From: Flavobacteriales bacterium
GTDB lineage: Bacteria; Bacteroidota; Bacteroidia; Flavobacteriales_F; PHOS-HE28
Direction: 5' to 3'
DNA: 64,000 nt
Assembly: GCA_023957375.1 (NCBI GenBank)
Contig: JAMLHB010000002.1
Span: 372,001 to 436,000, forward strand
The notes under the pieces are model-generated. The model was given only the letters and a program-made list of their open reading frames with translations, did not search any database and was not told where the DNA came from. A program made the translations under genes and the position numbers. Of the stretch, positions 27,415-47,251 are shown piece by piece (position 1 is the first letter of the stretch; each line of letters opens with the position of its first letter).

Positions 27415-28221
27415 TTATTGGGGGGATCGCTTGGTGGCCACCACCTGGTCGTCAAAGCGCAGGTCCACGGTGCTGTACCTGCGCCAATCCGCCTGTGGCA
27501 AGCCTTGTTGGTAGAATAGCTTGAGCTTGTCCAGCCGTTGGGCCAGGTGGCTTCCATCGCCGACCCGCACTTGCATCATGCCCACATTGGGCACCAGGGT
27601 GAACTCGCCTTGGGCGTCCACCACGGCCTGTCCGAAAAGCGCGCTCCAGAAGGGATTTTTGCGCAAGGTGGTGGCCAGGGCATGTATGGCTGCGCAGTGG
27701 GAGTGCATGGCCAACGAATCATTTCCGGAGGTCACATTCACCGGGGCCTGCATCCCGAAGGGTTCCTGGAGCATGCCCGTCACCACCATCACGCGGGCGG
27801 TGTAGTTGGGGTCCAGGGGCATGGTCCAGCCTTCCTTATCGATGTAGAAGCCGGTGCCATCCGCGTTCACCACGCGTACGATGGGCTCGCGCTGCCGCGC
27901 GTTGACGTGCAGCACTCCGTCCATGGTGTGGTACACATCGGCCTCCGCCACGCAAGGGATGGCACGCAGGTGTTGCTCGATGGCGGTTTCATCCAGCTTG
28001 TTCACGGGGGTTCCGATCACGGGCCCCGTGCCCGTGGCCACCTGCAGCTTCAAAGCTTCGGCATCGATGAAATGCACGTCTCCCGCAGGTGCCAGGTTCA
28101 CGCGCACTTCCCGCACGGGCACGTTGTTACCGCGCTGCTCCACGAAGCCCAGCACCGCGATCACGGCACAGGCCGCGGCGAACTTCGCCGCCAGGCGCAG
28201 GGTCTTTTTCACACGGCTCAT
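27415..28221 (-). CDS. ftsQ: Cell division protein FtsQ/DivIB
   Basis: The 268-residue bitopic divisome protein has a short cytoplasmic N-terminus, one membrane helix (about 10-27) and a periplasmic POTRA and beta domain (LDETAIEQHLRAIPCVAEADVYHTMDGVLHVNARQREPIV). Sequence conservation in FtsQ is low, but its position between murC and ftsA and its topology are diagnostic. Its ATG overlaps the murC stop by 4 bases. Confidence 0.9.
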   Translation of the reverse strand: MSRVKKTLRLAAKFAAACAVIAVLGFVEQRGNNVPVREVRVNLAPAGDVHFIDAEALKLQVATGTGPVIGTPVNKLDETAIEQHLRAIPCVAEADVYHTMDGVLHVNARQREPIVRVVNADGTGFYIDKEGWTMPLDPNYTARVMVVTGMLQEPFGMQAPVNVTSGNDSLAMHSHCAAIHALATTLRKNPFWSALFGQAVVDAQGEFTLVPNVGMMQVRVGDGSHLAQRLDKLKLFYQQGLPQADWRRYSTVDLRFDDQVVATKRSPQ

Positions 28222-29597: not shown

Positions 29598-29599
29598 GG

Positions 29600-30730: not shown

Positions 30731-31916
30731 GGGCACCTGATGCATGGGGATTCCCGGCCTTGGCGTTGGCTGGATCGTCGTATACACTGCGGCTTACACT
30801 GAGGATGATGCCGATGGCCAGGCAGGTGAACCACATGCTGGTGCCGCCCATGCTCACCAAGGGGAGCGGCTGGCCGGTCACGGGCACCAGGTTTACGCCA
30901 ACGGCCATGTTCACCAGCGCCTGCATCACCAAACCCAACGCCAGGCCGATGGCCACCAGCGAGCCGAACGGCTTCTCGCAGCGGTTGGCGATTCGCCTGG
31001 CACGCGACAGCAGGATCACATACAGCAGCAACACGCCCAGCCCGCCGATGATCGAACCGTACTCCTCGATGATGAAGGCGTAGATCATGTCGCTCTCGGG
31101 GTGCGGCATGTAGTTGCGTGAAGTACCCGTTCCGGGGCCGTTGGGCAGGAAGCCGCCGTGTACAATCGCGATCTTCGCCTTGTTCACCTGGTAATTGGCG
31201 TCGCTATCGGTGCCTCCATGGCTTTCGATCCGCGCCTGCCATGTTTGCAACCGGGGCAACAGTTCCGGGTTGGCCTTGGAGAGGAGCAGCAACAGGGCAA
31301 AGCCGCCCGCAGCTACGCCGCAGATGCCCAGCAGATGCTTCATTGGCACCCCGCCGATGAACATCAGCACCATGCAGGTGGCGAAGAGCAGGGCCGCGGT
31401 GGAAAAATTGGCCGGCAGGATGGCGGCGGCCACGGCACCCACAGGAAGCATCAGGCGCAGCAGCACCTCGCGGAAGGTCCATGGTTCGCCATGCCGCCGA
31501 GCCAACACGCGGGCCGTGTAGGCGATAATGACCACGCGGGCCAGGTCGCTCGTCTGAAAGGTGAGCCCGATGCCCGGAATGGCCAGCCACCGCGAAGCAC
31601 CGTTCACATTGCTGCCCACCAGCAGGGTAAGGACAAGCAACGCCACGGTGGCGCCCAAGAACACTTGCGACAGTTTGGAATACACCGTGTAGCGCAGCTT
31701 GCTGGCGGCATACATGATACCCCCTCCCCCGGCCAGCATCAAAGCATGCTTCACCAGGATCCTGAACGTGCCGCCGGTATCGCGCCAGCCCATCCACGAG
31801 GAGGCGCTATATACCGCCAACAGGCTGGTAACGGCCAACAGCAAGGCCACCATCCAAATGGTGCGGTCACCTCGTAGGTGCCGGTCCAGCAAAACATTCA
31901 TCCGTGGGTTGTACAT
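30717..31916 (-). CDS. ftsW: Septal peptidoglycan polymerase FtsW
   Basis: The 399-residue SEDS-family protein has about ten membrane helices. It polymerises lipid II at the septum together with FtsI. Conserved segments include LAVYSASSW, QTSDLARVVIIAYTARVLARRH, TGTSRNYMPHPESDMIYAFIIEEYG and VPVTGQPLPLVSMGGTS. A second ATG five codons in (31901) is also possible. Its start is 10 bases after the MurD-CTD-like gene. Confidence 0.96.
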   Translation of the reverse strand: MYNPRMNVLLDRHLRGDRTIWMVALLLAVTSLLAVYSASSWMGWRDTGGTFRILVKHALMLAGGGGIMYAASKLRYTVYSKLSQVFLGATVALLVLTLLVGSNVNGASRWLAIPGIGLTFQTSDLARVVIIAYTARVLARRHGEPWTFREVLLRLMLPVGAVAAAILPANFSTAALLFATCMVLMFIGGVPMKHLLGICGVAAGGFALLLLLSKANPELLPRLQTWQARIESHGGTDSDANYQVNKAKIAIVHGGFLPNGPGTGTSRNYMPHPESDMIYAFIIEEYGSIIGGLGVLLLYVILLSRARRIANRCEKPFGSLVAIGLALGLVMQALVNMAVGVNLVPVTGQPLPLVSMGGTSMWFTCLAIGIILSVSRSVYDDPANAKAGNPHASGAHAAA

Positions 31917-31926
31917 GGCGCGGGGG

Positions 31927-32415
31927 TCAGAGGTCTTTCAAGGCAAGTCTGTATTCCTTCCCGGAACCCGCACTGCTCCCCGTTTCCTGCAAGGCAGGGC
32001 CATCTGGGCAAAAGAGGACCTTCCCCCCTTGCACAGCCAGTTCACGCGCGGTGAAGACGGCCGTGCGGAGGTCGGGGGTGAAATAGGCCAGCTCCGATCC
32101 GGCGCTCCACGCATCCACCAGTGCGGGATCGGCCTTGCCATGGAACACTACGGCATCCACGTGCGCATGGAGGAGCTCCATCACACGTTCGTCCAAGGAA
32201 CCGGCCACGCCCGCATCCGCGATCCACACCAGGGGCTTGCCCAGCCCGGAGATGGCCTGAAGGGTTCCGTCCAACGTTGCCCCGGCGGAAAGCTCCATGT
32301 AATCCACGCCGGCAATGGAGGCCACGGTGCCCAACACCCCCGTCACCCGGGGCGTCCGATCGCGCGCGGAAGCCAATTGCTCCGCCCATTGTGCCATGGT
32401 CTTGCCTGCTGACAT
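31927..32415 (-). CDS. Free-standing MurD C-terminal-domain paralog
   Basis: This 162-residue protein lies between murD and ftsW, 25 bases after the murD stop and 10 before ftsW, so it belongs to the dcw operon. Its residues ~20-162 align end to end with the C-terminal domain of the neighbouring MurD: GVDYMELSAGATLDGT matches [29 protein letters not shown] matches [25 protein letters not shown] matches [12 protein letters not shown], and GGKVLFCPDGPALQ matches [14 protein letters not shown]. The residues typical of the ligase active site ([15 protein letters not shown]...RG) are lost, and the N-terminal UDP-binding and central ATPase domains are absent. It is therefore unlikely to be a ligase. 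No signal peptide or membrane helix is seen. A regulatory or structural role in the Mur/Fts complex is an inference. Confidence 0.8.
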   Translation of the reverse strand: MSAGKTMAQWAEQLASARDRTPRVTGVLGTVASIAGVDYMELSAGATLDGTLQAISGLGKPLVWIADAGVAGSLDERVMELLHAHVDAVVFHGKADPALVDAWSAGSELAYFTPDLRTAVFTARELAVQGGKVLFCPDGPALQETGSSAGSGKEYRLALKDL

Positions 32416-32440
32416 GGGGTCCGAGATTTCCACGGTTGGC

Positions 32441-33793
32441 TCAGAGCGCACGCACCGCTGCCTTGAACTTGCGGCCGCGGTCCTCGTAATTTTCAAACAG
32501 GTCGAAGCTGGCACAAGCGGGGCTGAGCAACACCACATCGCCGGGTTCGCCCAGTTCGTATCCCTTGTTCACGGCTGCTTCCGCCGAATCCACGTCGGTT
32601 ATCGAACCTACGATGTCGCCGAAGGCCTGGTGGATCTTTTCATTGTCCACGCCCAAGCAGATGATGGCCTTCACCTTGCGGCGTACCAGGTCGCGCAATT
32701 CCGAATAATCATTTCCCTTGTCCACACCGCCCACCACCCAGATCACGGGCTGCTCCATGCTCTCCAGGGCGAACCAGGTGCTGTTGACGTTGGTGGCCTT
32801 CGAGTCGTTGATGAACTCCACGCCGTTCACCGTGCCAACGCGCTCCAGGCGGTGCTCCACATTGCGGAAATCGGCCAGCGCATCGCGCAGCACATCGCTG
32901 CGCACGTCCAGCACACGCGCCGCAATGCCCGCCGCCAGGGAGTTGTACACATTGTGTTTGCCTTGCAGGGCTAGTTCCAGGATGCTCATGGTGAAGGAGG
33001 ATTGGTTGGTGTTGATGTGGATGTTTTCGTTTTGGAGGAAGCCGCCCTGTTCCACTTGGGTGCGGATGGAGAAGGGCCAATGGCGTGCGCGCACCGTATG
33101 GCGTTTGAGGCCTTCCCGGGTTTGGGGGTCGTCGGCACAGAAGATGAAGTGGTCTTCGGGCCCCTGGTTCATGGCGATGCGGAACTTGCTGGCCACATAG
33201 TTCTCCATGCGGTGGTCGTAGCGGTCCAGGTGGTCCGGCGTGATGTTGGTGATCACGGCAATGCGGGGCTTGAGGGTGCTGGTGCCGTCCAACTGGAAGC
33301 TGCTCAGCTCGAGCACCAGGATGTCATGCCGCTCCTTGGCTACCAGCCCTGCGAAGGAGGTGCCCACGTTTCCTGCGAGCCCGGCGTCCATGCCGGCCTT
33401 GCGGAGGATGTGGTGCACCAGGAGCGTGGTGGTGGTTTTTCCATTGCTTCCGGTGATGCCGATGATGGGCACGGTGACATGGCGCGACGCGAACTCCACC
33501 TCCGCGATCACCGGCACGCCCTTGCTGCGCAGCGCCTTGACCACCGAGGCCGTGTCGGGGATTCCCGGGCTTTTGACCACCTCGTCGGCCGCGAGGACCC
33601 GGTGCAAGGTGTGCCCGCCCTGCTCATGCCCGATGCCAGCTTCCTCCAAGCGTTTCCGGAACGGCTCCGCGATCAGGCCGGCATCACTGACAAAGACCGG
33701 CACGCCGAGCTTCTTGGCCAACAGGGCAGCCCCCACGCCGCTCTCCCCCGCGCCCAGCACCACCAGCTCTTTTGCCTTGCCCGCCGCGTTCAT
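32441..33793 (-). CDS. murD: UDP-MurNAc-L-alanine:D-glutamate ligase
   Basis: The 450-residue cytoplasmic Mur ligase adds D-glutamate. The N-terminal UDP-binding domain has [18 protein letters not shown], and the ATP loop is [17 protein letters not shown]. The central domain has [20 protein letters not shown] and the C-terminal domain [18 protein letters not shown] with [19 protein letters not shown]. The start overlaps the mraY stop by 4 bases. Its C-terminal domain is duplicated as the next gene. Confidence 0.98.
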
Positions 33794-35037
33794 CGCAGTT
33801 TCAGTGTTACCAGGGTGGCCACGGCGAGCATCACGCCCACAATGAGGAAGCGGGTGACGATCTTGCTTTCGTGGTAGCCGAGTTTTTGGAAATGGTGGTG
33901 CAAGGGGGCCATTTTGAAGATCCGGCGTCCCTCGCCATAGCGTTTGCGGGTGTACTTGAACCAGGACACCTGCATCATCACGCTCAGGTTCTCCACCACG
34001 AACACGCCGCAGAGCACGGGGATCAGGAGTTCCTTGCGCACCAGGATGGCCAGTGCGGCGATCACTCCGCCCAAGGCGAGGCTGCCGGTGTCGCCCATAA
34101 AGACCTGCGCGGGATAGGCGTTGTACCAGAGGAAACCGATGCAGGCCCCCAGCAACGCCCCCACGAACACCACCAGCTCGCCGATGCCCGGGATGTACAT
34201 CACGTCCAGGTATTGGGAGAAGATGATGTTGCCGCCGATGTAGGTGAGCACCCCCAGTGCCAGCACGATGATGGCACTGGTGCCCGCGGCCAGCCCATCG
34301 ATGCCGTCGGTGATGTTGGCCCCATTGCTGACGGCGGTGATGATGAAGACCACCACCAGCACGTACAGCACCCAGGTGTATTTGCGGGCCTCGCGGCCGA
34401 AGAGCCCCATCACCGAGGAGTAGTTCAGCTCATTGCCCTTCACAAAGGGGATGGTGGTGTTGGGCTGCCTCCGGTCCAGCAGGTAGTGCTTGGTGCCGCT
34501 GTCCTCGGTGAACACGCTGATCTCGGCCGGGTCGAACTGCTCGGCGATCACTTGGGGCACTTCCACCTTGGTGCGGATCGCCGGGTGGAAATACACGGTC
34601 AGCCCAATGACCAGGCCGATGCCGATCTGGCCGATGACCTTGAACATGCCGGCCAGGCCCCGTTTGTCCTTTTTGAAGACCTTGATGTAATCGTCGATGA
34701 AGCCGATGGTGCCCAACCACACCATGGCGATGAGCATGAGCAGGATGTAGATGTTGTCCAACCGGGCGAACAACAGGGTGGGCGCGATGGTGGCCAGAAT
34801 GATGATGAGGCCGCCCATGGTCGGCGTTCCCTGTTTTGCCACCTGGCCCTCGAGGCCGAGGTCCCGCACGGTCTCGCCCACCTGCTTTCGCTGCAGCAGC
34901 CTGATGATGCCCTTGCCCCACCACAGGGAGATCATCAGGGAGGCGATCAAAGCCATGCCGGCCCGGAAGCTGATGTAATCGAACACACCGCTTCCGGGGA
35001 AGGCCAGGTGGAACCCGTTGATGAGGTGGTAGAACAT
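33790..35037 (-). CDS. mraY: Phospho-MurNAc-pentapeptide translocase
   Basis: The 415-residue polytopic membrane enzyme transfers phospho-MurNAc-pentapeptide to undecaprenyl phosphate, giving lipid I. It has about ten helices with conserved signatures [55 protein letters not shown] and the HHH-type APLHHHFQK. It includes a ~40-residue loop rich in charged residues ([20 protein letters not shown]), a known Bacteroidota insertion. The start shares one base with the murE stop. Confidence 0.98.
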
Positions 35038-36500
35038 TACTTGCCGAGGAGTTCAAGGGTTTCCTTCATTACCTCCACATCACTGAAGTGGTGGCGCACG
35101 CCGTGCACCTCCTGGTAGGTTTCATGGCCCTTTCCGGCCACCAGCACCACATCGCCCGGGGCGGCCATGCCCAAGGCCTGGCGAATGGCCTCGCGGCGGT
35201 CGGCATTGACGAATGCCCGTGCCTGGTCCGCGGGCAACAAGCCCTTGCGCATATCATCGATGATGGCCATGGGCTCCTCACTGCGCGGGTTGTCGCTGGT
35301 GAGGATCACCGTTCTGCTCAAGCCTGCGGCAATGGCGGCCATCAGCGGCCGCTTGGTCTTGTCGCGGTCGCCGCCGCAGCCTACCACGGAGATCACGCGG
35401 TCGCGGTCGCCGCATACGGCGCCGATGGTGTTGAGCACATTCTTCAATGCATCGGGCGTGTGCGCGTAATCCACGATGCCGATCACGCCGCCCCGCCCCC
35501 TGACCACTTGGAAGCGCCCCGGCGGCGGCTCGAGGCTGCTCAGTGCCGTAAGCACTTCCACCTGCGGCTGGCCCAGCAGCACGGCCGCCGCATACACGGC
35601 CAACAGGTTGCTGGCGTTGAACTCGCCCACCAACTTGGAGTACACCTCATGGCCGTCGATGTTGAGCTGCAGACCGGCGAGCTGGTTCTCGATGATGCGT
35701 GCGCGATGGTCGGCCAGGTTGCGCACGGCATAGGTGCTTTTGGCAGCCTTGGTGTTCTGCACCATCACTGCGCCATGCGGGTCGTCCGCGTTCACCAAGG
35801 CATGTGCTTCCGCCGGCAAGGCATCGAAGAATCCCTTCTTGGCCCGGATGTAGTTGTCGAACGTGCCGTGGTAATCCAGGTGGTCATGGGTGATGTTGGT
35901 GAATATGCCGAGGGCGAACTGGAGCCCTGCGACCCGTTCCTGCACCACGGCATGGCTGCTCACCTCCATGAAGCAGTGGGTGGCGCCCCGTTCCACCATT
36001 TCGGCGAGCAGCTCGTTGATGCGCAACGGGTCCGGCGTGGTGTGGGTGGCCGGCAACACCTCGTTGCCCATGCGGATCTCCACCGTGGAGATCAGTCCGC
36101 AGGTGTAGCCCAGCGCGGTAAAAAGCTCGTGCAGCATGGTGGCCACGCTGGTCTTTCCGTTGGTGCCGGTAACACCGGCCAACCTCAGTTTCCGATCGGG
36201 ATGGTCGTGGAAATTCCCGGCCATGATCGCCAAGGCGTGCCGGCTGTCGGCCACGCGCACATAGGTCACGCCCTCCTTCATTTCGCCGGGCAGTTTCTCG
36301 CAGATCACGGCCACTGCGCCCCTTTCCACTGCGGCCTGGATGAAGGCATGCCCGTCGCTGTGGGTGCCGCGCACGGCCACGAAGGCGCCCGCCGGCCCGG
36401 CCCACCGGCTGTCGAAGGCGATGGATGCGATGGGTGTACGCGTATCACCGGCCACTTCTTCCAGGCGCGTGCGGTACAGGAGGTCCTTCAGCAGTTTCAT
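35037..36500 (-). CDS. murE: UDP-MurNAc-tripeptide synthetase, meso-DAP type
   Basis: The 487-residue cytoplasmic ligase adds the third amino acid of the stem peptide. It has the ATP loop [31 protein letters not shown], a central carbamylated-Lys region, and the C-terminal substrate motif [14 protein letters not shown] is the established signature for meso-diaminopimelate specificity, so the peptidoglycan is of the A1gamma type. It overlaps ftsI by 4 bases. Confidence 0.97.
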
Positions 36501-38614
36501 ATCGCCAGTTCCAGGGTTACGGTGGTTCCCTTTAAAGAGCGCTCCCCCGGCATGGGCGCCTGCCGCTTCACCATGCCGCTTCCGGTAAAGCGCACGCGCA
36601 TGCCGTGGTTTTCCAGGATGTAGAGGGCATCACGCAGGCCCATGCCCAGCACGTTCGGCACCATGGGCGTGCCGGGGTCCGGCACTGCCCGCGGTCCTAC
36701 CATCACCACGCTGTCGGTTGCGCTGGTGGAGGCCCACTCCCCGTCACCCTCCACGTTCACGGGCACCTTCAGCGCATCGAGCACCGTCAGCAGGTCGGCC
36801 CGGTTGCCGCCGAACGAGACGGGCGTGCGGAACACGGTATCGGCCTGGGCCGTGGCCGGGGCCTGCATTTCCAGGCGGTTGCTGTAGATCTTGTCGGCGA
36901 TCTCGCGGAAGACAGGTCCGGCAACCACATTGCCGTAGATGCCCTTCTGGGTGGGGGAGCTCACCACCACAATGCAGGTGTAGCGCGGCGCATCGGCTGG
37001 GAAATAGCCCACGAAGGAGGCTTGATAGCTTTTGCCGTTCACCTTGTAACCGGCCTTGTCCGCAGCGATCAGCGCGGTGCCTGTCTTGCCGGCGATGCGG
37101 AAGTGCGCGCTGCGCAGGTTGGTCGCGGTGCCTGAATCCACCACTGCTTCCAGCACGCCACGCAATTTGGCCAAGGTGGCTTCCCCGCAGATGCGCTCCT
37201 TGAGCGCGACCGGTTCAAAGCGCTCGGTGACCTTCCCTTCGCGGGTGATCTGGCGGACCAGTTGGGGCTGCATCATCCGCCCTCCGTTCGCAATGGCGTT
37301 GTAGAAGGTGAGGATGCGCATGGGCGTTACGCTCACCTCATAGCCGATGCTCATCCACGGCAGGGAGACCCCGCTCCACAGCTTTTTATCCTCGGGCCCG
37401 CGCAGCACCGGTATGCCTTCCCCGGGAAAGCGCAGGCCCAGTGTGCTTCCAAAGCCCAGGTTGCGCAGGCCCTCCACGAACTTGGCCGGGTCCGTCCGGT
37501 ACGCTTGGTCGATGGCCTGCGAAATGCCGGTGTTGCTGCTCAGTTCCAAGGCTCTTCCCAAGGTGATCAGGCCGTAGCCTCCGTCATGGGAGTCGATCAT
37601 GGTCCGGTCGTAGAACCGGCGCTTCCCGCCACGGGTGTCCACCACTTGGTCCAGGGAAACGCGCCCGTCTTCCAGGGCCACCATCAGGGCGGCGGTCTTG
37701 AAGGTGCTTCCCGGCTCGGTGCTGGCCCCGATGGCGTAGTTGTAATCCTCGGCGTAGGAGCTGTCCGGCTGCAGGGTAAGGTTGCTGATGGCCTTGATGT
37801 AGCCGGTCTTGGTTTCCATCACCACCACGCAGCCATGGTGTGCGCCGTTGCGGCGCAGCTGGGTGGCCAGGGCGTTGTCGGCCACGTCCTGCAGGTTCAT
37901 GTCGATGGTGGTGTGCACATCACTGCCCGGCACGGGTTCCTTTCCTTCGCCGCCGTCCACGGGCATCCACACGCCACCGGTCAGCCTCCTTTCGAGGCGC
38001 TTTCCCGAAACGCCTTGCAACCATGGGGCAAAACCGGCCTCCAGGCCCACGGCAGAGCTGTCCTTGAGCAGGTAGCCCACGGTGCGGGAGGCTAAGCGGC
38101 CAAAGGGCCGTATGCGGATCATGTACTTGTCCGCGATGAAGCCGCTCTTGTTGCGCCCCAACCGGAACAGGGGCATTTTGCGCAGGGCCTGCAACTGTTC
38201 GTGGTCGCACCGGCGCTTGATCAAATGGTAGCGTTCACCCCTCTCCCTGGCACGCACTAAGCTTTGGCGGTATTCCTGCATGGTGCGGTCGCCGAAGAAC
38301 TGGGAGAGGCTCCATGCCAGTGAATCGATGTTGGCTTGGAACAGCGCGTCGGTCAGGCCGTCGGCCTGCATGTCCATGCGGATCTCGTACATGGGCACGC
38401 TGGTTGCCAGCAGTCGGTCGTCATCGCTGAAAATGTGGCCTCGTTCGGAGCTCACCGTGCGCATGGCCGTGGCCACGTTTTCGGCCCGCTCGCGCCACTG
38501 GTCGCCTTCGAGCAGCTGGATGCTGAAGAGCTTCACGGCAATGGCGGCACTGAAAAGGATCAGCACGGCATACACCACCCCCATGCGCACTTGGTATGGG
38601 TTTCCGGCGTTCAT
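36497..38614 (-). CDS. ftsI: Septal penicillin-binding protein FtsI (PBP3) with PASTA domain
   Basis: The 705-residue transpeptidase is anchored by one N-terminal helix (about 12-32). A pedestal domain is followed by the penicillin-binding domain with all three motifs: the SxxK serine in STEPGSTFKTAA, SSN in ELSSNTGIS, and KTG in IAGKTGTALIA. A single PASTA domain ends the protein (MVPNVLGMGLRDALYILENHG ... [12 protein letters not shown]), as is usual in Bacteroidota. It acts with FtsW in septal wall synthesis. It overlaps both ftsL (4 bases) and murE (4 bases). Confidence 0.97.
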   Translation of the reverse strand: MNAGNPYQVRMGVVYAVLILFSAAIAVKLFSIQLLEGDQWRERAENVATAMRTVSSERGHIFSDDDRLLATSVPMYEIRMDMQADGLTDALFQANIDSLAWSLSQFFGDRTMQEYRQSLVRARERGERYHLIKRRCDHEQLQALRKMPLFRLGRNKSGFIADKYMIRIRPFGRLASRTVGYLLKDSSAVGLEAGFAPWLQGVSGKRLERRLTGGVWMPVDGGEGKEPVPGSDVHTTIDMNLQDVADNALATQLRRNGAHHGCVVVMETKTGYIKAISNLTLQPDSSYAEDYNYAIGASTEPGSTFKTAALMVALEDGRVSLDQVVDTRGGKRRFYDRTMIDSHDGGYGLITLGRALELSSNTGISQAIDQAYRTDPAKFVEGLRNLGFGSTLGLRFPGEGIPVLRGPEDKKLWSGVSLPWMSIGYEVSVTPMRILTFYNAIANGGRMMQPQLVRQITREGKVTERFEPVALKERICGEATLAKLRGVLEAVVDSGTATNLRSAHFRIAGKTGTALIAADKAGYKVNGKSYQASFVGYFPADAPRYTCIVVVSSPTQKGIYGNVVAGPVFREIADKIYSNRLEMQAPATAQADTVFRTPVSFGGNRADLLTVLDALKVPVNVEGDGEWASTSATDSVVMVGPRAVPDPGTPMVPNVLGMGLRDALYILENHGMRVRFTGSGMVKRQAPMPGERSLKGTTVTLELAI

Positions 38615-39006
38615 GGCTTGCTGCGGAGCTTTGTCAGTTCCTTCTGTTCCACGGCGATCTTCGCAGGCGGCACCCGGCTTTCACGCAGGCCCAGCCCGCT
38701 GATGTCGTCCGCCACTTGGCTCTGGCTTTCGGTGCGTTCCAGCAGGCTGCGCACGGTGATGTATTCCGACCGCATTTCCTTCAGTTCGCTGCTGGTGCGG
38801 TCCAATTCGCGCACGGTGCGCTCGGTCCAGTAGCCGTAGCCGATGTAGAAGAGCATGAGCCCGGCCACAAAGAGCAGGAAAGGCATGTTGGCCAGCACCT
38901 TTTCGCGGGTGAGGAACGTGCCGTTCAGCACGTTCACCAGCCCACGCGGGAACGTGCGCCGCCGTTTTTCTCCTTCCTGCCGGGGCATGTCCTTGCGCTT
39001 GTTCAT
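38611..39006 (-). CDS. ftsL: FtsL-like divisome protein
   Basis: The 131-residue bitopic protein has a basic cytoplasmic tail (KRKDMPRQEGEKRRR), one membrane helix (about 41-59, PFLLFVAGLMLFYIGYGYW) and a periplasmic coiled coil (RTVRELDRTSSELKEMRSEYI). Primary sequence conservation is weak, but size, topology and position between rsmH and ftsI match FtsL of Bacteroidota. It overlaps both neighbours by 4 bases. Confidence 0.88.
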   Translation of the reverse strand: MNKRKDMPRQEGEKRRRTFPRGLVNVLNGTFLTREKVLANMPFLLFVAGLMLFYIGYGYWTERTVRELDRTSSELKEMRSEYITVRSLLERTESQSQVADDISGLGLRESRVPPAKIAVEQKELTKLRSKP

Positions 39007-39917
39007 CGCCTTGTTGCGGTTCTCATCCGCGCGCTTCGGGCACGCGGGTTGCGGTCCATCTCTTCTTCCGATGCCTGCACGGCTTTGCCGCCCACCGGAC
39101 TGAACGGGCGCAGGCTGTTTCCGTACAGGTCTTTTTGCTCATGCCCTTCCATGTTGCCGGCCCGCATCCAGTTTTTCACCAGGCGGTCCTCCAGACTGTG
39201 GTAGCTGATCACTACCAAACGGCCGCCCGGCCTGATCATCCGGGCGCTGTCGTGCAGCAGCTGGCGCAGCGCACCCAGTTCATCGTTTACGGCGATGCGC
39301 AAGGCTTGGAACACCTGCGCGAGGAATCCATGCTCGTCGCCCCTCCGTGCAAGCGGGCGCAGCAGAGCAGCCAGTTGGCCCGTGGTGGCAATGGACGCAC
39401 GGGCGCGCTCCGCAACGATCGCCCGGGCCGCGCGGCGTGCCTGGGCCACCTCGCCATAGTCCTTGAAGATCTTGGCCAGGTCCGCTTCATCCAAGGTGTT
39501 CAGCAGGTCCGCGGCGGAACGCTTGGCGCCTTGGTTCATCCGCATGTCCAGGGGCGCATCGAACCGGAAGCTGAACCCTCGCTCCGGCGTATCAAACTGG
39601 TGGCTGCTTACGCCGAGGTCGGCCAGCAGCCCGTCCACAGGCCACTTCCCCAGGAAGCGCAATTGGTTGGCCACCCATCGAAAATCCGAGGCCACCAGGG
39701 TGAAGCGCGGATCAATCGGGGCATTGGCCCTGGCATCGGCGTCGCGGTCAAATGCGATCAAGGCGCCTTGTGCCCCGAGCCGGGCCAGGATGGCGCGGCT
39801 GTGCCCACCTCCTCCGAACGTGGCATCCACATAGGTGCCTTGCGGGTCGATGACGAGGGCCTCAACGCTCTGCTGCAACAGGACCGGCTCATGGTATGTG
39901 GCTTGGGCCGTCATCAT
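39003..39917 (-). CDS. rsmH: 16S rRNA (cytosine1402-N4) methyltransferase
   Basis: The 304-residue enzyme methylates C1402 of 16S rRNA with S-adenosylmethionine. The N-terminus is YHEPVLLQQSVEAL, SAM binding is DATFGGGGHSRAIL, and GLLADLGVSSHQFDTPERGFSF and VISYHSLEDRLVK are the conserved catalytic-region blocks. It overlaps mraZ by 29 bases. The second of two tandem ATGs (39914) is equally possible. Confidence 0.98.
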   Translation of the reverse strand: MMTAQATYHEPVLLQQSVEALVIDPQGTYVDATFGGGGHSRAILARLGAQGALIAFDRDADARANAPIDPRFTLVASDFRWVANQLRFLGKWPVDGLLADLGVSSHQFDTPERGFSFRFDAPLDMRMNQGAKRSAADLLNTLDEADLAKIFKDYGEVAQARRAARAIVAERARASIATTGQLAALLRPLARRGDEHGFLAQVFQALRIAVNDELGALRQLLHDSARMIRPGGRLVVISYHSLEDRLVKNWMRAGNMEGHEQKDLYGNSLRPFSPVGGKAVQASEEEMDRNPRARSARMRTATRR

Positions 39918-40365
39918 TGCCCAGGCTGCCCATTACTTCTTCCGCCAATGCGGAGAGGTTCACCTTTTCGCGGCGCATCCGCGCATAACCCTCTTTGCTC
40001 CACACCTCCACCCGGTCGCCCAAGCACACCAGCTTGAGGTCCTTGCCCAGCTTCGGATCGTCCATTAGTGCCTTGGGCAGCAGCAAGCGCCCGCTTCCAT
40101 CGAGTTCCAAATGCGTGGCCCCCGAAGTGAACCGCCGGATGAACTCCATGTTCTTCTCCACGAAGCGGTTCAACCGGCCCAGCATGCGGCTGGTCTGATC
40201 CCACACCGCGTGCGGATAGAGCACCAAGCAGGGCTGGAACACGTCGCGGTTGACCACGAAGCCCTTTGAGAGGGCGCTCTCCAACTGCTTCTTCAGTCCG
40301 GCAGGCAGCACTAAGCGCCCTTTCGCATCCAAGCGGACCTCGTATTCGCCGAGCAGGTTGAGCAT
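39889..40365 (-). CDS. mraZ: Transcriptional regulator MraZ
   Basis: The 158-residue protein has two AbrB/SpoVT-like swapped-hairpin domains (GEYEVRLDAKGRLVLPAGLKK; THLELDGSGRLLLPKALMDD). MraZ is the dcw autorepressor and binds direct repeats of GTGGG with 5-base spacers. Such an operator is present upstream (40411-40435). The start at MLNLLGEYEVRLD is chosen from family alignment; the upstream in-frame ATG at 40425 would lie inside the operator. It is the first gene of the dcw operon. Confidence 0.97.
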   Translation of the reverse strand: MLNLLGEYEVRLDAKGRLVLPAGLKKQLESALSKGFVVNRDVFQPCLVLYPHAVWDQTSRMLGRLNRFVEKNMEFIRRFTSGATHLELDGSGRLLLPKALMDDPKLGKDLKLVCLGDRVEVWSKEGYARMRREKVNLSALAEEVMGSLGNDDGPSHIP

Positions 40366-40392
40366 GGGTGGCCATCGGGGGACTTGTGGCGG

Positions 40393-40400
40393 CGAAAGTA
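40393..40400 (-). promoter_or_regulatory. -7 promoter element of the dcw operon
   Basis: On the minus strand this reads TACTTTCG, one mismatch from TAnnTTTG and identical to the element of the RNA-binding protein gene. The mraZ ATG is 27 bases downstream. The -33 region falls inside or next to the MraZ boxes, as expected for repression. Confidence 0.55.
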
Positions 40401-40410
40401 GGCCCTTTGT

Positions 40411-40435
40411 CCCACTTTCATCCACATAACCCCAC
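40411..40435 (-). promoter_or_regulatory. MraZ operator, three GTGGN boxes
   Basis: On the minus strand the sequence is GTGGG, five bases, GTGGA, five bases, GTGGG: three boxes at an exact 10-base period. This is the arrangement MraZ is known to bind in E. coli and Mycoplasma. It covers about -15 to -40 relative to the predicted start. Confidence 0.8.
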
Positions 40436-40738: not shown

Positions 40739-41638
40739 ATGCAACCCACCAGGCCCCAAGCACTGTTCAAGCCAAGCATCCTTCCACGCCTTCTGCGGCT
40801 TCCCCAGTGGCTGAAGAACGGCTTCGTGTTCTTTCCGGCCTTCTTTGCCGGGGTTCTCTTCCAAGCCGACGTGATCGGGCGGTTGTTGGCGGGCTTTCTG
40901 AGCTTCAGCTTAGTGGCCTCGGCCATCTACCTGGTCAACGACCTGCGTGATGTGGAGCAAGACCGGTTGCACCCGGTGAAGCGCCTCCGTCCTATTGCCG
41001 CCGGCGAGGTGGACCCTGCCTTGGTGCCCTGGGCAAGTGCGTTGCTGGCCTTGGCCGGATTGGGCTGGGCCTGGTTAACGGACATACACTTTGCCATGGT
41101 GCTGGCGGCCTACGCGGCCCTGAACCTGCTGTATTCGTTCCGGCTCAAGCACATCCCCATCGTGGATGTGGCCATCATCGCGATCGGCTTTTTACTGCGC
41201 GTCCACTCGGGCGGCATCCTGGCCCATGTGCCCAATTCGAAATGGATCCTGTTGGTCACCTTCCTGCTCGCCCTCTTTCTGGCCTTGGCCAAGCGCCGCA
41301 ATGACCTGGTGCAGGCCAACGGCGGCACGGATCTGCGTGCAAGCTTGCGCGGCTACAACCTGCCGTTTGTCGACGCCTCCATGATCACCTTGGCCGCCTT
41401 GGTCGTGCAGTCCTACATCCTGTATACCGTCAGTGAGGATGTCATCGAGCGGCTGGGCACGGACCGGGTGTACATCACCAGCGGATTCGTAGTACTGGGC
41501 ATGATGCGCTACTTCCAGCTCACCTTGGTGGAGCACCGGACCGGCGACCCCACCAAACTAGTGTTCAAAGACCGGCCCATCCAATTGATCATTCTTGCAT
41601 GGGCGATCTCATTCGGTATCATCCTCTATGCGGGCTGA
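40739..41638 (+). CDS. UbiA-family phosphoribosyl-polyprenol synthase (DPPR synthase-like)
   Basis: The 299-residue polytopic membrane prenyltransferase has about eight to nine helices. The Mg/diphosphate-binding motif NDLRDVEQD is at 67-75, followed by HPVKRLRPIAAGE, which matches the DPPR synthase (Rv3806c-like) branch of the UbiA superfamily rather than quinone or haem prenyltransferases. A second Asp-containing loop (AKRRNDLVQANGG) is present. It would join phosphoribosyl-PP to a polyprenyl phosphate. The context settles the choice: the next gene is a DprE1-DprE2 fusion, overlapping by 11 bases, and a HAD phosphatase follows. The ATG at 40739 is chosen because the family's N-terminus begins there. 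Confidence 0.88.
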   Translation: MQPTRPQALFKPSILPRLLRLPQWLKNGFVFFPAFFAGVLFQADVIGRLLAGFLSFSLVASAIYLVNDLRDVEQDRLHPVKRLRPIAAGEVDPALVPWASALLALAGLGWAWLTDIHFAMVLAAYAALNLLYSFRLKHIPIVDVAIIAIGFLLRVHSGGILAHVPNSKWILLVTFLLALFLALAKRRNDLVQANGGTDLRASLRGYNLPFVDASMITLAALVVQSYILYTVSEDVIERLGTDRVYITSGFVVLGMMRYFQLTLVEHRTGDPTKLVFKDRPIQLIILAWAISFGIILYAG

Positions 41639-43730
41639 GCACGGCAGATGGACGAACTGGGGCCTCTTCCCCGAGGTGCCCGGCACGCTATGGCGGCCGC
41701 AAAGCATTGCGGAGGCGCAGCGGCTCACCACTGAACACCAGGGATTGGCCCCGCACGGCAATGGCCGCTCATACGGCGATGCCTCCTTGGGCAAGCGCAT
41801 GATCAGCGGGCTGGGGCTCAGCGAGGTGTTCGAGCTCGACCAGGCGCACGGCACCCTGCGCTGCAGTGCGGGCCTGCTGCTGGACGAGATCCTGCTGCGG
41901 ACCGTGCCGCTCGGTTTCTTCCTTCCGGTCACACCCGGCACCCGGCTGGTGAGCGTCGGCGGGGCCATCGCCGGGGACATCCATGGCAAGAACCACCATG
42001 TGGACGGCAGCTTTTCGGCATTCCTTGAGGAGGTGGTCCTGATCATTGGAGACGGGCGGGTTGTGCGTTGCTCCCGCACGGAACTCCCCGACCTGTTTTG
42101 GGCCACTTGCGGCGGCATGGGCCTCACCGGTTTCATGGTGGAGGCCACCATCCGCCTCAAGCCGATCACCTCTTCCTATATCCGCCAACGTGCGATCAAG
42201 TGCCGCCACCTGGATGAATTGTTCGAGCGCTTCGAAGCGCACAAGGAAACCACGTACAATGTGGCCTGGATCGACCTGATGGCCGGCGGGCACCATCAAG
42301 GGCGCTCGGTGCTGCTGCTGGGCGAGCATGCGGATGCCTCGGAGCTGAAGGGCGCCCGATCCAGGAATCCTTTGCGCCCGCATGGCAAGGTGCGGGCCAA
42401 GGTGCCTTTCTTCTTCCCCGGGTTTGTGCTCTCTCCGCTCGCGGTGAAGGTGTTCAACTTCTTCTACTACCTCAAGGCAGGCACCTCCGATGCCGGGAGC
42501 TACGTGCACTATGCGCCCTACTTCCATCCCTTGGACGCGGTGGGCGGCTGGAACAAGATCTACGGCCGGCGCGGTTTCGTGCAATACCAGTTCGTGGTGC
42601 CCCTCCGGGAAGGGCGCCGGGTGATGGGCGAAGTGCTGGAGGAATTGCGCACGCATGGCATGGTGAGCTTTCTGGCGGTGCTCAAGCGGTTCGGCCCCGA
42701 GGCGCAAGGGCCGCTGATCAGCTTCCCCATGGAAGGCTATACCTTGGCCTTGGACATCCCGCTGCGCAAGGGCACGTTGGAGGTGCTGAACCGGCTGGAC
42801 CGCCTGGTGGCCGATGCCGGCGGGCGGATCTACCTGGTAAAGGATGCGCGGATGTCCGCGGGCATGCTGGAGCTGACCTATCCACAGCTGGGGGACTTCC
42901 GCCGCATTGCTGCCATCTATGGCCAAGGCCGCTTCAACACGGCTCTTTCCGAGCGCCTCAACCTGCTCGGAAACGCGCCTCGCGAAATGAAGTACGATCC
43001 ACAACGGGTGCTGATCCTCGGGGCCAGCTCGGGCATCGCCACTGCGCTGGCATGGAAGTTCGCAGGCCAAGGGCATCCACTGACGTTGGCAATGCGCAAC
43101 ACGGATGCGGGTGCGGCGTTGGCCGAGGCGATCCGCAGGGAGGCGGGCGTGGATTGCAGGGCGGTCCATTTCGATGCCGAGGCCACGGCGGAACATGCCG
43201 CCTTCTACTCGGCACTTGACCCGCGTCCGGGCATCGTGGTATGCGCCTTCGGCATACTGCCGGACCAGGTTGCGGCGCAGGACGGGCCCGGCGCCGGATT
43301 GCGCTCCATCGCGGTGAACTACACCAGCGCGGTGAGCATCCTGGAGGAAGCCGCACGCGACTTGGAGGAGCGGGGCTGCGGCACCATCATCGGGATCTCT
43401 TCGGTGGCGGGCGACCGCGGCCGGGGCAGCAACTATTTCTATGGTAGCGCCAAAGCCGGCTTCACGGCCTACCTCAGCGGCCTGCGCAACCGGCTATACC
43501 GGTCGGGCGTGCACGTCCTCACGGTAAAACCCGGATTCGTGCGCACGCGCATGACGGAGGGCCTGCCTTTGCCCGCCCCGCTGACGGCAACGGCCGAACA
43601 AGCCGCACGCCTCATCTTCCGCGCCTACCGGAAAAAGCGCAACACGGCATACGTGCTGGGCCGTTGGCGCTGGGTCATGCTCATCATCACCCTGCTTCCG
43701 GAGGGCGTGTTCAAGCGGTTGCGCCTATGA
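41628..43730 (+). CDS. dprE1-dprE2: DprE1-DprE2 fusion: polyprenyl-phosphoribose 2-epimerase, both subunits in one chain
   Basis: This 700-residue protein joins two enzymes that are separate in mycobacteria. Residues 1 to ~450 are a DprE1-like FAD oxidase: HGNGRSYGDAS (43-53), FAD pyrophosphate loop VTPGTRLVSVGGAIAGDIHG (101-120) with KNHH (121-124), substrate region RFGPEAQGPLISFPMEGY (354-371) and YLVKDAR (402-408; Lys405 corresponds to the essential Lys418 of M. tuberculosis DprE1). Residues ~455-700 are a DprE2-like short-chain dehydrogenase: GASSGIA (465-471), VNYTSAVS (563-570), catalytic YGSAK (605-609), and the hydrophobic tail WVMLIITLLPEG. Together they oxidise then reduce C2 of polyprenyl-phospho-ribose to the arabinose form. 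The position of M. tuberculosis Cys387, the covalent benzothiazinone target, is Ala374 here. The stop overlaps the next start (ATGA). Confidence 0.9.
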   Translation: MRAEHGRWTNWGLFPEVPGTLWRPQSIAEAQRLTTEHQGLAPHGNGRSYGDASLGKRMISGLGLSEVFELDQAHGTLRCSAGLLLDEILLRTVPLGFFLPVTPGTRLVSVGGAIAGDIHGKNHHVDGSFSAFLEEVVLIIGDGRVVRCSRTELPDLFWATCGGMGLTGFMVEATIRLKPITSSYIRQRAIKCRHLDELFERFEAHKETTYNVAWIDLMAGGHHQGRSVLLLGEHADASELKGARSRNPLRPHGKVRAKVPFFFPGFVLSPLAVKVFNFFYYLKAGTSDAGSYVHYAPYFHPLDAVGGWNKIYGRRGFVQYQFVVPLREGRRVMGEVLEELRTHGMVSFLAVLKRFGPEAQGPLISFPMEGYTLALDIPLRKGTLEVLNRLDRLVADAGGRIYLVKDARMSAGMLELTYPQLGDFRRIAAIYGQGRFNTALSERLNLLGNAPREMKYDPQRVLILGASSGIATALAWKFAGQGHPLTLAMRNTDAGAALAEAIRREAGVDCRAVHFDAEATAEHAAFYSALDPRPGIVVCAFGILPDQVAAQDGPGAGLRSIAVNYTSAVSILEEAARDLEERGCGTIIGISSVAGDRGRGSNYFYGSAKAGFTAYLSGLRNRLYRSGVHVLTVKPGFVRTRMTEGLPLPAPLTATAEQAARLIFRAYRKKRNTAYVLGRWRWVMLIITLLPEGVFKRLRL

Positions 43731-44317
43731 GGACCATCGCCTTCTTCGACCTGGACGGCACCATCACCAAGGCGGACGCCATGCTGGAGTTCATCGCTTT
43801 CTGCCATGGCCGGCCCAGGCTGTACCTGCTGCTGGCATCGGTATTTCCGGCATGGCTGCTGGCAAAAGCCGGTTTGGCCCCGCAGGACGCCGCGAAGAAA
43901 GCGGTGGTACGGCGCGTGTTCTCGGGCGGGCAGGTGGCCATATGGAATGAACGCGCCGTGCGCTTCACGCAGGAACGCATGCCCCGGTTGTTGCGCCCTG
44001 CGGCCATGGACTGCATTGCGGCCCACCAGCGGCAAGGCCACGAGGTGGTGGTGGTCACCGCTTCGTGCACCCTATGGGCAGCGCCATGGTGCGCCAGCCA
44101 CAACATCCCGTGCATCGCCACCGGGCTGGAAGAACGTGATGGCCGCTTCACCGGACGGTTGGCAACGCCCAACTGCAAGGGTCCGGAGAAGGTTCGGCGC
44201 ATCAGGGAACTGTTCGGGCCGTTGGATGATGCACGGCTGTACGCCTACGGCGACACGCCTGATGACAGGCCCATGTTGGCCATGGCCTCGGACCCGCATT
44301 ACAAGCCATTTCGCTAA
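43727..44317 (+). CDS. HAD-IB family phosphatase
   Basis: The 196-residue HAD hydrolase has motif I FFDLDGTITK (nucleophile Asp8, acid/base Asp10), a helical C1 cap rich in hydrophobics (LYLLLASVFPAWLL), motif II VVVTASC, a Lys in KGPEKVRRI and motif III YGDTPDDRPML. It is of the SerB-like HAD-IB class. Its ATG overlaps the DprE1-DprE2 stop. In the pathway, polyprenyl-phosphoryl-5-phosphoribose must lose its 5-phosphate before DprE1 acts; mycobacteria are thought to use a PAP2-type enzyme. A HAD enzyme here is the obvious candidate, an inference from context. The hydrophobic cap would fit a lipid-linked substrate. Confidence 0.85.
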   Translation: MRTIAFFDLDGTITKADAMLEFIAFCHGRPRLYLLLASVFPAWLLAKAGLAPQDAAKKAVVRRVFSGGQVAIWNERAVRFTQERMPRLLRPAAMDCIAAHQRQGHEVVVVTASCTLWAAPWCASHNIPCIATGLEERDGRFTGRLATPNCKGPEKVRRIRELFGPLDDARLYAYGDTPDDRPMLAMASDPHYKPFR

Positions 44318-44327
44318 ACACCTGCAC

Positions 44328-44777
44328 ATGACCGGCTTGCACCACACGTTCAAGGCGCCCCCGTTCAAGTGGCTGCTCATCGGCTTGGTGCTGGCGTTGG
44401 CGATCTCCGGTGCCGGGGCCATCCGGTTGGCCTGGCCCGTTGTTCCCCGCCAAGCGCTTGTTGGCTCCTATCACCGGGCGTCCCCTTTCCTCCTGCCCGT
44501 TGGCGGCACACCGGCCACCTTGGCACTGGGTGCGGACGGCACGCTGCTGTTGGAAGGTGATGCCCCCGGGCTGCCATTCCACGGAACATGGACATGGGAC
44601 ACACAGGAACGCATCGTGCGCACGGACAACCCGCTTTGGGACCGCCGCATCCGCCTGCGCAGCACCATTACCGGGCCGAGGTTGAGCATGCGGATCTGCG
44701 GCACACCATTCAGCAAGGACGATGAGGAAAGGGATGAGGAGGTGGATTATATCAAAACAACTCCTTCAGGCGACTGA
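44328..44777 (+). CDS. Small membrane-anchored protein of unknown function
   Basis: The 149-residue protein has one strong N-terminal hydrophobic segment (about residues 14-32, KWLLIGLVLALAISGAGAI), either an uncleaved anchor or a signal peptide. A beta-rich, probably periplasmic domain follows (LLPVGGTPATLALGADGTLL, GTWTWDTQERIVRTDN), with an acidic tail (SKDDEERDEEVD). I do not recognise the family. It lies 10 bases after the HAD gene and its stop shares a base with the next start (TGATG), so it belongs to the operon and is probably needed near the GT-C-like protein. Confidence 0.7.
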   Translation: MTGLHHTFKAPPFKWLLIGLVLALAISGAGAIRLAWPVVPRQALVGSYHRASPFLLPVGGTPATLALGADGTLLLEGDAPGLPFHGTWTWDTQERIVRTDNPLWDRRIRLRSTITGPRLSMRICGTPFSKDDEERDEEVDYIKTTPSGD

Positions 44778-46435
44778 TGGCCCCATTGCCCTTGGAACAG
44801 CGCCAGGCCCGGCGGCAGCTCGCCGCCATGGCGGTCCTCATGCTCCTGTACATGCTCGTGCTGGCGTTGATCCCCGCCCTGAGGGCGGTGGCCGGCCTTG
44901 AACGCGGGTCCACCATCGACCTTCACCGCGACGAGGCCTTCGTGCGTGCGCTGTTGGAAGGACATTACGGGGAAGACCCCGCCTACCTCGGTGGTGGCAT
45001 GTGGTACACGCCCCTGATCACTTGGCTGGAAGCAGCGGTGGCCTGGCTCACCGGCCTGCCCGCGAGCCAGGTGATCGTGCAGCTGGGGCCGTTCGCAAAC
45101 CTGCTCGCACCGATCTCCTTCTTCACCATGTGCTGGTATTTCGTGGGGCCGGTGCGCGCCGTGGCCTGCACCGCCATCTTCCTGTTCTTCTCCATCGGGC
45201 AGGAACCCGGCTGGGTGGTGGCCACGTATTCGCATCGCCTGATCCCCGTGTCGTTCAGCCAATCCTTCTTTTACCTGGACCTCATTTTGATCGATCACGC
45301 CTTCCGCAGGCAACGACCCGTTCCAGCGCTGCTCGCAGGCTCCCTGATGGGCATCACGTTCCTCGCACATGCCGGCCCAGCCATTATCGCCGTACTGCTT
45401 GTTGCCGTGCTGACCATGTGGGAAGTATCCTCCGCGCTGCTCCGCCAAGACCGGAAAGCCGCGTGGAGCAACGCACGCACCGCCTTGCTGGCCGCAGCCG
45501 CCTTTATCGTCGCCTCCCTGCCGCTTACCTGGCACCTGCTCACCGGTAACCTCCACGTGGCCAACCGCGCGGGTTTCCTCTTCACTTATTATGCCCTGTC
45601 GCTGCACGGCATCAACGTGTTCCTGTACCACAACTTGGCCCTGGTCAATTTATTGGCCGCAGCCGGCATCATGGCCGTTTGGCACAACCGCGCCTGGGCC
45701 GGTGGATCGCCTTATACCCGCAAACTCCTTTTTGCGTGGGCCGCGCTTGCGATGTTGCTCTTCGCATACAGCTACCTTGCGTCGTTGCTGCAAACGCATT
45801 ACGGCATCTCCTTGCCGTTGCTGCTTCCCTCGTTCCACTTTTACTTCTACACCAGCGCAGTGCTATCGGTATTTGCCGGATTGGCCGTGGTGGAGATCTT
45901 GAAATGGACCTGGACCCGGCGCGGGAGCCCCGGCGCAAACGGGTACCGCAGCGAACAGCCCGGGTTGGTCTTTGTCTTTTTCCTGCTGGTCGCTGCCGCT
46001 TGTACCGCCCGCTATCCCTCGTATGCCACCCGCCGCGACATCGCCATCGTGCGCAACCGCGACCTTGCTTTCAAAAGCGACACGGCGGGCAGCCAGGCAG
46101 AGCAGGCGATCCACCGGCTCGTGCCGTGGAACGGCGTGGTGCTCTGCGAACCGGAGTTCAGCGCCTGGCCCATGTTGGCCACTGCACGCCATGTGGTTGC
46201 CACGGAAAGCACCATGGGCAATCCATACTTGGACCATGCCCAGCGCGAACGGGACAATGCGGAGCTGCTGCAAGGCATGGCCCGGTCTTTGCCAGGCACA
46301 GCCGGTTTGATGGGCAAATACGGCGTCACGCACCTGTTGGTCAGTCCGCAGGAACTGGCCCGGATGCCCAAGGCCGTGCACTGGTTTCCGGTGCGCCTGT
46401 TCCAAAATCAACAGTACGTGCTGCTGGCGCGTTGA
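44777..46435 (+). CDS. Polytopic GT-C-like membrane glycosyltransferase candidate
   Basis: The 552-residue integral membrane protein has about eleven hydrophobic helices and an N-terminal first loop with the acidic motif IDLHRDEAF, as in the first periplasmic loop of GT-C glycosyltransferases that use polyprenyl-phospho sugars. A soluble C-terminal domain (~100 residues, LVPWNGVVLCEPEFSAW ... GKYGVTHLLVSPQELARM) resembles the periplasmic domains seen at the end of such enzymes. As the last gene of the operon, it is the natural user of polyprenyl-phospho-arabinofuranose. I cannot assign it to a named GT family by eye. A flippase or polymerase is possible. The acceptor (LPS, capsule, protein or other) is unknown. 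Confidence 0.65.
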   Translation: MAPLPLEQRQARRQLAAMAVLMLLYMLVLALIPALRAVAGLERGSTIDLHRDEAFVRALLEGHYGEDPAYLGGGMWYTPLITWLEAAVAWLTGLPASQVIVQLGPFANLLAPISFFTMCWYFVGPVRAVACTAIFLFFSIGQEPGWVVATYSHRLIPVSFSQSFFYLDLILIDHAFRRQRPVPALLAGSLMGITFLAHAGPAIIAVLLVAVLTMWEVSSALLRQDRKAAWSNARTALLAAAAFIVASLPLTWHLLTGNLHVANRAGFLFTYYALSLHGINVFLYHNLALVNLLAAAGIMAVWHNRAWAGGSPYTRKLLFAWAALAMLLFAYSYLASLLQTHYGISLPLLLPSFHFYFYTSAVLSVFAGLAVVEILKWTWTRRGSPGANGYRSEQPGLVFVFFLLVAAACTARYPSYATRRDIAIVRNRDLAFKSDTAGSQAEQAIHRLVPWNGVVLCEPEFSAWPMLATARHVVATESTMGNPYLDHAQRERDNAELLQGMARSLPGTAGLMGKYGVTHLLVSPQELARMPKAVHWFPVRLFQNQQYVLLAR

Positions 46436-46489: not shown

Positions 46490-47251
46490 ATGGGGAACGA
46501 GCTGAAGGAAGCGGGGGAGTTCAAGTACATCGACGTGGGAAGCGGCACCCCCCTGCTCTTTCTGCACGGGTTGTTCGGGGCATTGAGCAACTTCAGCGAC
46601 ACCACGGAACACTTCCGCGACAAGTACCGGGTGGTGATGCCCATCCTTCCGCTGTATTCATTGCCCATGCTCAATACCAACGTAAAAGCCTTGGCGGTGT
46701 TCCTGGACCGGTTCATCGGCCATCTCGGCCTGAAGGACATCAACCTTTTGGGCAACTCGCTGGGCGGCCATGTGGCCTTGGTGTACACCAGCAAGCACCC
46801 GGGCATGGTGCGCACGCTCACGCTTACGGGCAGCAGCGGGCTTTATGAAAATGCGTTCGGTGGAAGCTTTCCCCGCAGGGAGGACAAGGAGTTCATCCGC
46901 AAGAAGGTGGCCGTCACCTTTTACGACCCCAAATTTGCCACGGACGAGCTGGTGGATGAATGCTTCGTAACGGTGAACGACCGCGCCAAGTTGATCCGCA
47001 TCCTGTCGCTGGCCAAGAGCGCCATCCGGCACAACATGGCCGCGGAGCTGCCCAAGCTGAAGATGCCCACCTGCCTGATCTGGGGCAAGCAGGACACCAT
47101 AACCCCGCCCCATGTGGCCGAGGAGTTCCACACGCTCATCCCGCACAGCGAGCTGTTCTGGATCGATCGCTGCGGACACGCCGCGATGATGGAACAGCCG
47201 GCGGAGTTCAACCACATCCTGGACGGATGGTTGACGAAAACACTGGCGTAG
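46490..47251 (+). CDS. Alpha/beta-fold hydrolase
   Basis: The 253-residue cytoplasmic hydrolase has the oxyanion-hole segment LLFLHGLFGALSNF, nucleophile elbow GNSLGGH, acid in IWGKQDTITPP and the catalytic His in IDRCGHAAMMEQP. The full triad is present. The start at MGNELKEAG is chosen because the upstream in-frame residues precede the promoter. The gene is found next to engB and the mraZ/dcw region in other flavobacteria, as I recall. Its substrate is unknown; the nearest characterised relatives are esterases and C-C hydrolases. Confidence 0.9.
   Translation: MGNELKEAGEFKYIDVGSGTPLLFLHGLFGALSNFSDTTEHFRDKYRVVMPILPLYSLPMLNTNVKALAVFLDRFIGHLGLKDINLLGNSLGGHVALVYTSKHPGMVRTLTLTGSSGLYENAFGGSFPRREDKEFIRKKVAVTFYDPKFATDELVDECFVTVNDRAKLIRILSLAKSAIRHNMAAELPKLKMPTCLIWGKQDTITPPHVAEEFHTLIPHSELFWIDRCGHAAMMEQPAEFNHILDGWLTKTLA

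Follow-up and report, generated by a model that had tools for sequence, protein, structure and literature searches.

A five-gene unit with a natural DprE1-DprE2 fusion in a Flavobacteriales bacterium probably makes a polyprenyl-phosphate-linked D-arabinofuranose donor for surface glycosylation

The mycobacterial DPA pathway comprises the UbiA-family DPPR synthase Rv3806c, the phosphatase Rv3807c, DprE1 (Rv3790), DprE2 (Rv3791), and the AftA/Emb transferases, among which AftA is the DPA-dependent arabinosyltransferase that initiates the mycobacterial arabinan. We take the active-site positions of Mycobacterium tuberculosis (Mtb) DprE1 to be Y60, H132, K134, Q334, Q336, Y415, and K418, and C387 to be the target of benzothiazinones (BTZ). 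Both DprE1 and DprE2 serve as drug targets in tuberculosis; they co-purify as a complex, and channelling between them has been proposed as the keto intermediate is unstable, but the complex and its proposed channel have proved hard to study because DprE2 aggregates (PMC9993113). Outside actinobacteria, synthesis of a D-Araf donor has been published for Pseudomonas, Citrobacter-type O-antigen loci, and rhizobia (PMC11127046, PMC5080398). The Gram-negative three-component pentofuranose systems, such as those of Citrobacter youngae O1/O2 (GT136) and of Pseudomonas pilin arabinosylation, have a polyprenyl-phospho-ribose synthase (PPPRS), a flippase, and a GT-C user, together with an epimerase step and a HAD-type 5'-phosphatase; in Citrobacter, this activity is ascribed to the HAD domain (PMC11127046). 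In the rhizobial noeCHOP operon, polyprenyl-phospho-arabinose genes accompany a transferase of their own, NoeP, in the arabinosylation of Nod factors (PMC5080398).

The locus described here lies in a contiguous stretch of 64,000 nucleotides (the window) and consists of five genes:

40739..41638, + strand: UbiA-family polyprenyl-phosphate 5-phosphoribosyltransferase (DPPR synthase type), 299 aa
41628..43730, + strand: DprE1-DprE2 fusion, 700 aa (residues 1-448 FAD oxidase, a linker of ~12 residues, residues 457-700 SDR reductase)
43727..44317, + strand: HAD-IB phosphatase, putative 5'-phosphatase of polyprenyl-phospho-5-phosphoribose, 196 aa
44328..44777, + strand: small bitopic membrane protein, putative GT-C partner, 149 aa
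44777..46435, + strand: GT-C-type glycosyltransferase, putative arabinofuranosyltransferase, 552 aa

All five ORFs are present on the + strand, in the order given by the first-pass annotation, which had read 40739-46435 as a single operon, and their ranges translate free of stop codons. The UbiA gene overlaps the fusion gene by 11 nt and the latter overlaps the HAD gene by 4 nt; a 10-nt gap separates the HAD and small-protein genes, and the last two genes overlap by 1 nt. A Pfam scan of the unit returned UbiA, FAD_binding_4 and adh_short within one protein, and HAD, and gave no family match for the small protein or the GT-C candidate. An alpha/beta hydrolase gene (46490-47251) was considered as a sixth member and rejected, because 44 of the 45 congeners have it, whether or not they carry the unit. 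The unit is divergent from an mraZ-rsmH-ftsL-type cell-wall cluster, and in this genus it is inserted on the mraZ side of that cluster. This dcw-type cluster (mraZ, rsmH, ftsL-like, PBP, murE, and further mur/fts-like genes) occupies positions 28218-40425 of the window on the - strand.

Compared with the mycobacterial pathway, the unit has a homologous synthase, oxidase, and reductase with their catalytic residues, and a GT-C user of AftA-like fold. It differs in that DprE1 and DprE2 form a single polypeptide, a HAD protein replaces the Rv3807c phosphatase, the residue corresponding to Mtb C387 is an alanine, the genome has no GtrA-type (Rv3789) flippase, and no arabinogalactan is known. With the Gram-negative three-component systems (PMC11127046) it shares the synthase, the HAD-type 5'-phosphatase, an epimerase step, and a GT-C user, but here HAD is separate from UbiA, the epimerase is the fused DprE1-DprE2, the GT-C protein has no Pfam match, and the unit contains no MATE flippase. 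The noeCHOP operon (PMC5080398) is likewise a Gram-negative operon joining donor genes to a transferase, but its genes are separate and its acceptor is a lipo-chitooligosaccharide. Split UbiA-DprE1-DprE2-HAD operons of Bacteroidota (L133, L134, L137, and L138 among others) have the same gene order and encode close sequence relatives, and differ in having two polypeptides and other GT-C-like neighbours. The first-pass annotation had expected a new system; this was not confirmed, as the donor pathway is published in Gram-negatives and split operons are common in Bacteroidota. What looks new here is the natural DprE1-DprE2 fusion, not the pathway. No report of such a fusion was found in the open-access literature searched, and the same literature yielded no report of a D-Araf donor pathway in Bacteroidota and none of arabinose in Bacteroidota glycans, which PMC12871550 does not mention.

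The only solved-structure relatives of the UbiA protein were decaprenyl-phosphate phosphoribosyltransferases (8j8j/8j8k, E 6e-42, phmmer). The protein also passed the NCBIfam DPPR-synthase model NF008978 (215 bits, cut-off 207) and scored only 28 bits against the heme O synthase model, thus matching DPPR synthase over quinone or heme prenyltransferases. On the evidence of the PDB relatives and of NF008978, a quinone-type UbiA, a grouping that the first-pass annotation had seen as fatal to its reading, was rejected. The HAD protein scored 132 bits against TIGR01490 (cut-off 98). In many loci of Bacteroidota and other bacteria, a phosphatase accompanies UbiA, whether as a separate HAD protein, within a long HAD-UbiA-type frame, or in the form of a PAP2-type protein, and this recurrence fits a role of HAD as the 5'-phosphatase. 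At one locus (L142:10359-10772), a divergent PAP2 (DUF212) protein lies between UbiA and DprE1, where other loci carry HAD, which suggests that HAD and PAP2 5'-phosphatases are interchangeable.

The description of the 700-residue protein as a DprE1-DprE2 fusion was upheld by the best solved relatives of both halves and by their catalytic residues. Residues 7-447 matched DprE1 (4aut, E 3e-73) and residues 457-698 matched DprE2 (21gq_C, E 2e-31; next SDR 1e-15) in phmmer searches, E values which, with that of UbiA against DPPR synthase, exclude a chance similarity. An assembly artefact was rejected, the fusion being in frame with the same junction in eight species of the genus. The catalytic and FAD-site residues of DprE1 are kept (Y60 as Y49, H132 as H119, K134 as K121, Q334/Q336 as Q319/Q321, Y415 as Y402, and K418 as K405), as is the Ser-Tyr-Lys triad of the SDR half (S592, Y605, and K609). 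Across 8 fused and 25-28 split homologues, these residues of both halves do not vary, those of DprE1 being kept in all 8 fused and 28 split rows. Among the checked active-site positions, only Mtb N385 and C387 are replaced, by a threonine and an alanine that most Gram-negative relatives also have. The AlphaFold model of the protein reached a pLDDT of 93.9, with a pTM of 0.71 that leaves the relative placement of the halves unfixed, and its best Foldseek match was Mtb DprE1 (E 5.5e-42).

Sequence identity between the oxidase half and Mtb DprE1 is ~30%, and both domains, like their presumed Gram-negative orthologues, fell below their curated NCBIfam cut-offs (396 vs 500 bits for NF053785 and 191 vs 250 for NF053786). 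The reductase domain passed the broader NF005489 (295 vs 267), as did DprE2-like reductases of Bradyrhizobium and Bacteroidota. Since presumed Gram-negative DprE1 orthologues (Bradyrhizobium, Acinetobacter, and other Bacteroidota) also failed NF053785, with scores of 343-423, whereas a Mycolicibacter control passed it with 802, this cut-off looks tuned to actinobacteria. In a tree with a single outgroup, a GlcD-type oxidase that is distant and very long-branched, the fused oxidases grouped as one clade (99) within Bacteroidota DprE1. They were separate from the GlcD-type FAD oxidase of the same genome and thus not among unrelated FAD sugar oxidases. On these sequence comparisons, the oxidase half is described here as a DprE1-like orthologue.

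We consider it probable that the operon makes polyprenyl-phosphate-linked D-arabinofuranose and uses this donor for surface glycosylation. The donor-synthesis half of this reading is strongly supported, in agreement with the first-pass claim that the operon makes the same donor as mycobacteria: UbiA, DprE1, and DprE2 have the expected best solved relatives, and UbiA and the fusion have an identical distribution, in the same 8 of the 45 species of the genus. UbiA would form polyprenyl-phospho-ribose-5-phosphate from PRPP, and HAD would remove the 5'-phosphate. The DprE1 half would then oxidize the 2'-hydroxyl with its FAD and the DprE2 half, using NAD(P)H, would reduce the resulting ketone to give the arabino epimer, the tethered halves offering the labile keto intermediate a shorter path. 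Some flippase would bring the lipid to the periplasm, where GT-C and its small membrane partner would transfer arabinofuranose to an envelope glycan or glycoprotein. The pathway had also been called complete, and this was not supported: of the parts of a three-component system, PPPRS and GT-C are present, but no flippase was found within the five-gene unit, and a family search detected no GtrA/Rv3789-type protein in the genome.

The fused and split forms were surveyed in 395 genomes sampled across the phylum, with DprE1 called at E below 1e-76. DprE1 was present in 81 of them, and, own genome excepted, all frames were too short for a fusion; among the 80 loci of the GTDB scan, only two were fused, both from this genus. 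The UbiA-DprE1-DprE2-HAD order recurs in many split Bacteroidota loci, often beside a predicted membrane protein of 7-10 spans. A second sample of 395 genomes, at class level, added three fusions (G449, G655, and G684, of 695, 673, and 673 residues), all immediately preceded by UbiA, and a confinement of the fusion to this genus was thus rejected. The split form is widespread, and the fused form is known from the eight species of this genus plus three further genomes of Bacteroidia. In a DprE1 tree including these genomes, the eight genus members formed one clade (100) with G684 as its sister (93), and G449 and G655 were placed elsewhere. Mapping the fused/split label on this tree required three changes, two of them forced by strongly supported branches, which suggests that the fusion arose at least two, and probably three, times in Bacteroidia. 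In the relatives of G655 the two genes are separate and overlap by ATGA, and its own fusion results from a single inserted base, which could be a sequencing error in a draft that is 70% complete.

To an ordinary case we give a real chance, although one short of even: the unit would be a copy of the published Gram-negative pathway, compatible with the chemistry proposed above, in which a trivial start/stop fusion has no functional meaning. Split operons are common, neighbouring E1 and E2 genes overlap or nearly touch so that a single indel fuses them, and in Mtb the two enzymes associate in a complex without being fused (PMC9993113). Against a trivial fusion stand its retention across eight species down to 55-59% domain identity, its recurrence in independent lineages, and the lack of any natural fusion in the open-access literature searched. 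Recurrent fusion is expected if DprE1 and DprE2 act in contact, and it supports, short of proof, a channelling of the keto intermediate inside the single polypeptide, which we regard as plausible. A wider reading can be put forward only tentatively, in which a Bacteroidota D-Araf donor is made by tethered, channelling DprE1-DprE2 enzymes in several lineages, and an AftA-like GT-C with a dedicated small membrane partner arabinosylates a glycan or glycoprotein of the envelope that is as yet undescribed. The contact model gains support from the natural single-chain enzymes of several lineages, which also provide ready-made proteins for structural and kinetic work. The survey implies that a D-arabinofuranose donor for undescribed glycans could be made by many Bacteroidota, possibly by a fifth of the genomes sampled.

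The identity of the last gene as GT-C-like, proposed in the first-pass annotation, was corroborated by its predicted fold. The AlphaFold model built with 16 homologues (pLDDT 86, pTM 0.88) had AftA (8if8) as its first Foldseek match (E 1.5e-10) and as its first match by VIA (Z 20.6, 3.9 A over 490 residues), a Z score tied with the 20.5 of oligosaccharyltransferases (OST), AftA having the lower rmsd; PglB and ArnT were also among the fold matches. A profile search among PDB structures found no sequence relative, AftA included, for either the GT-C or the small protein. GT-C_A enzymes have an essential aspartate at the tip of juxtamembrane helix 1 (PMC12041299). In the GT-C protein, the corresponding helix tip carries D48 and R51-D52, which are invariant among the 16 homologues; in the model, D48 lies at the start of the helix formed by residues 47-60, the place of the essential aspartate in GT-C_A enzymes. 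The small protein has one N-terminal helix (about residues 16-34) followed by a soluble domain, and matched no Pfam or NCBIfam family. It is conserved in 4 congeners (41-53%), and a homologue adjoins almost every GT-C homologue of the same clade in the genus. Its single helix led us to reject it as an Rv3789-like flippase. One congener (G419; L124:9455-10492) shows a second fusion of genes of the unit, with a single open frame of 346 codons encoding both the HAD phosphatase and the small membrane protein.

All eight species of the genus that bear DprE1 carry the fusion. Six of them (own genome, G411, G412, G425, G427, and G428) have the unit between mraZ and the alpha/beta hydrolase gene, whereas G419 and G422 have it at another genomic location, and mraZ and the hydrolase gene are only ~350 bases apart in G414, G417, and G436, which thus display the empty site. 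GT-C proteins of the cassette type were found in 6 of the 8 donor genomes against 1 of the 37 others (p 2e-5, relatedness ignored). G428 and G422 have the donor genes without this GT-C, the former at the same mraZ site, and paralogous small-protein/GT-C pairs are found in genomes without UbiA or DprE1 (G417 and G431). As each part occurs without the other, the unit consists of a separable donor module and a transferase module. Since the pair exists without donor genes, we infer, rather than observe, direct use of the donor by the GT-C protein.

The pair could thus be a passenger acting on another lipid-linked sugar while a different transferase uses the polyprenyl-phospho-arabinofuranose made by the donor module. 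The pairs of G417 and G431, the G428 site devoid of any GT-C of the family, and the other GT-C-like proteins adjoining split operons are in line with this view, which we nevertheless consider unlikely: the cassette-type GT-C tracks the donor genes in the genus, the split operon of an unrelated genus (L134) has a homologue next to it, AftA ranks first among the fold matches, and the genes overlap. The first-pass statement that the operon uses its donor at once is favoured by the AftA-like fold of GT-C and weakened by the pairs of donor-less genomes; on balance, GT-C likely uses the polyprenyl-phospho-arabinose made by this operon. A second small-protein/GT-C pair, of a second type, is present in the same genome (C1:1182752-1184356; L150:8750-10791), beside metal-efflux-type genes and without UbiA/DprE. 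Because similar pairs are found in DprE1-less congeners, this second-type pair probably represents a general glycosyltransferase module of two genes that uses other donors.

It is quite improbable that the final sugar is not arabinofuranose, made by some other 2'-epimerase/oxidoreductase of a polyprenyl-phospho-pentose or with the lipid used directly in its keto or ribofuranosyl form, for although the oxidase is distant from Mtb DprE1, both domains miss their curated cut-offs, and sister systems make ribofuranose or xylofuranose donors, the catalytic residues are kept in both halves, the reported xylofuranose system has a single SDR epimerase rather than DprE1/E2, and DprE1/E2 homologues are found with Araf-containing glycans (PMC11127046).

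Several class-level genomes (L189-L205) have DprE1 homologues, often beside UbiA, with no DprE2 homologue nearby. In family f4, whose nearest named relative is Chishuiella (Weeksellaceae), three loci (L137, L140, and L188) carry the split UbiA-DprE1-DprE2-HAD genes, adjoining housekeeping genes in L137 and L140, and the other f4 genomes seen also have DprE1; the donor pathway looks like core metabolism in this family.
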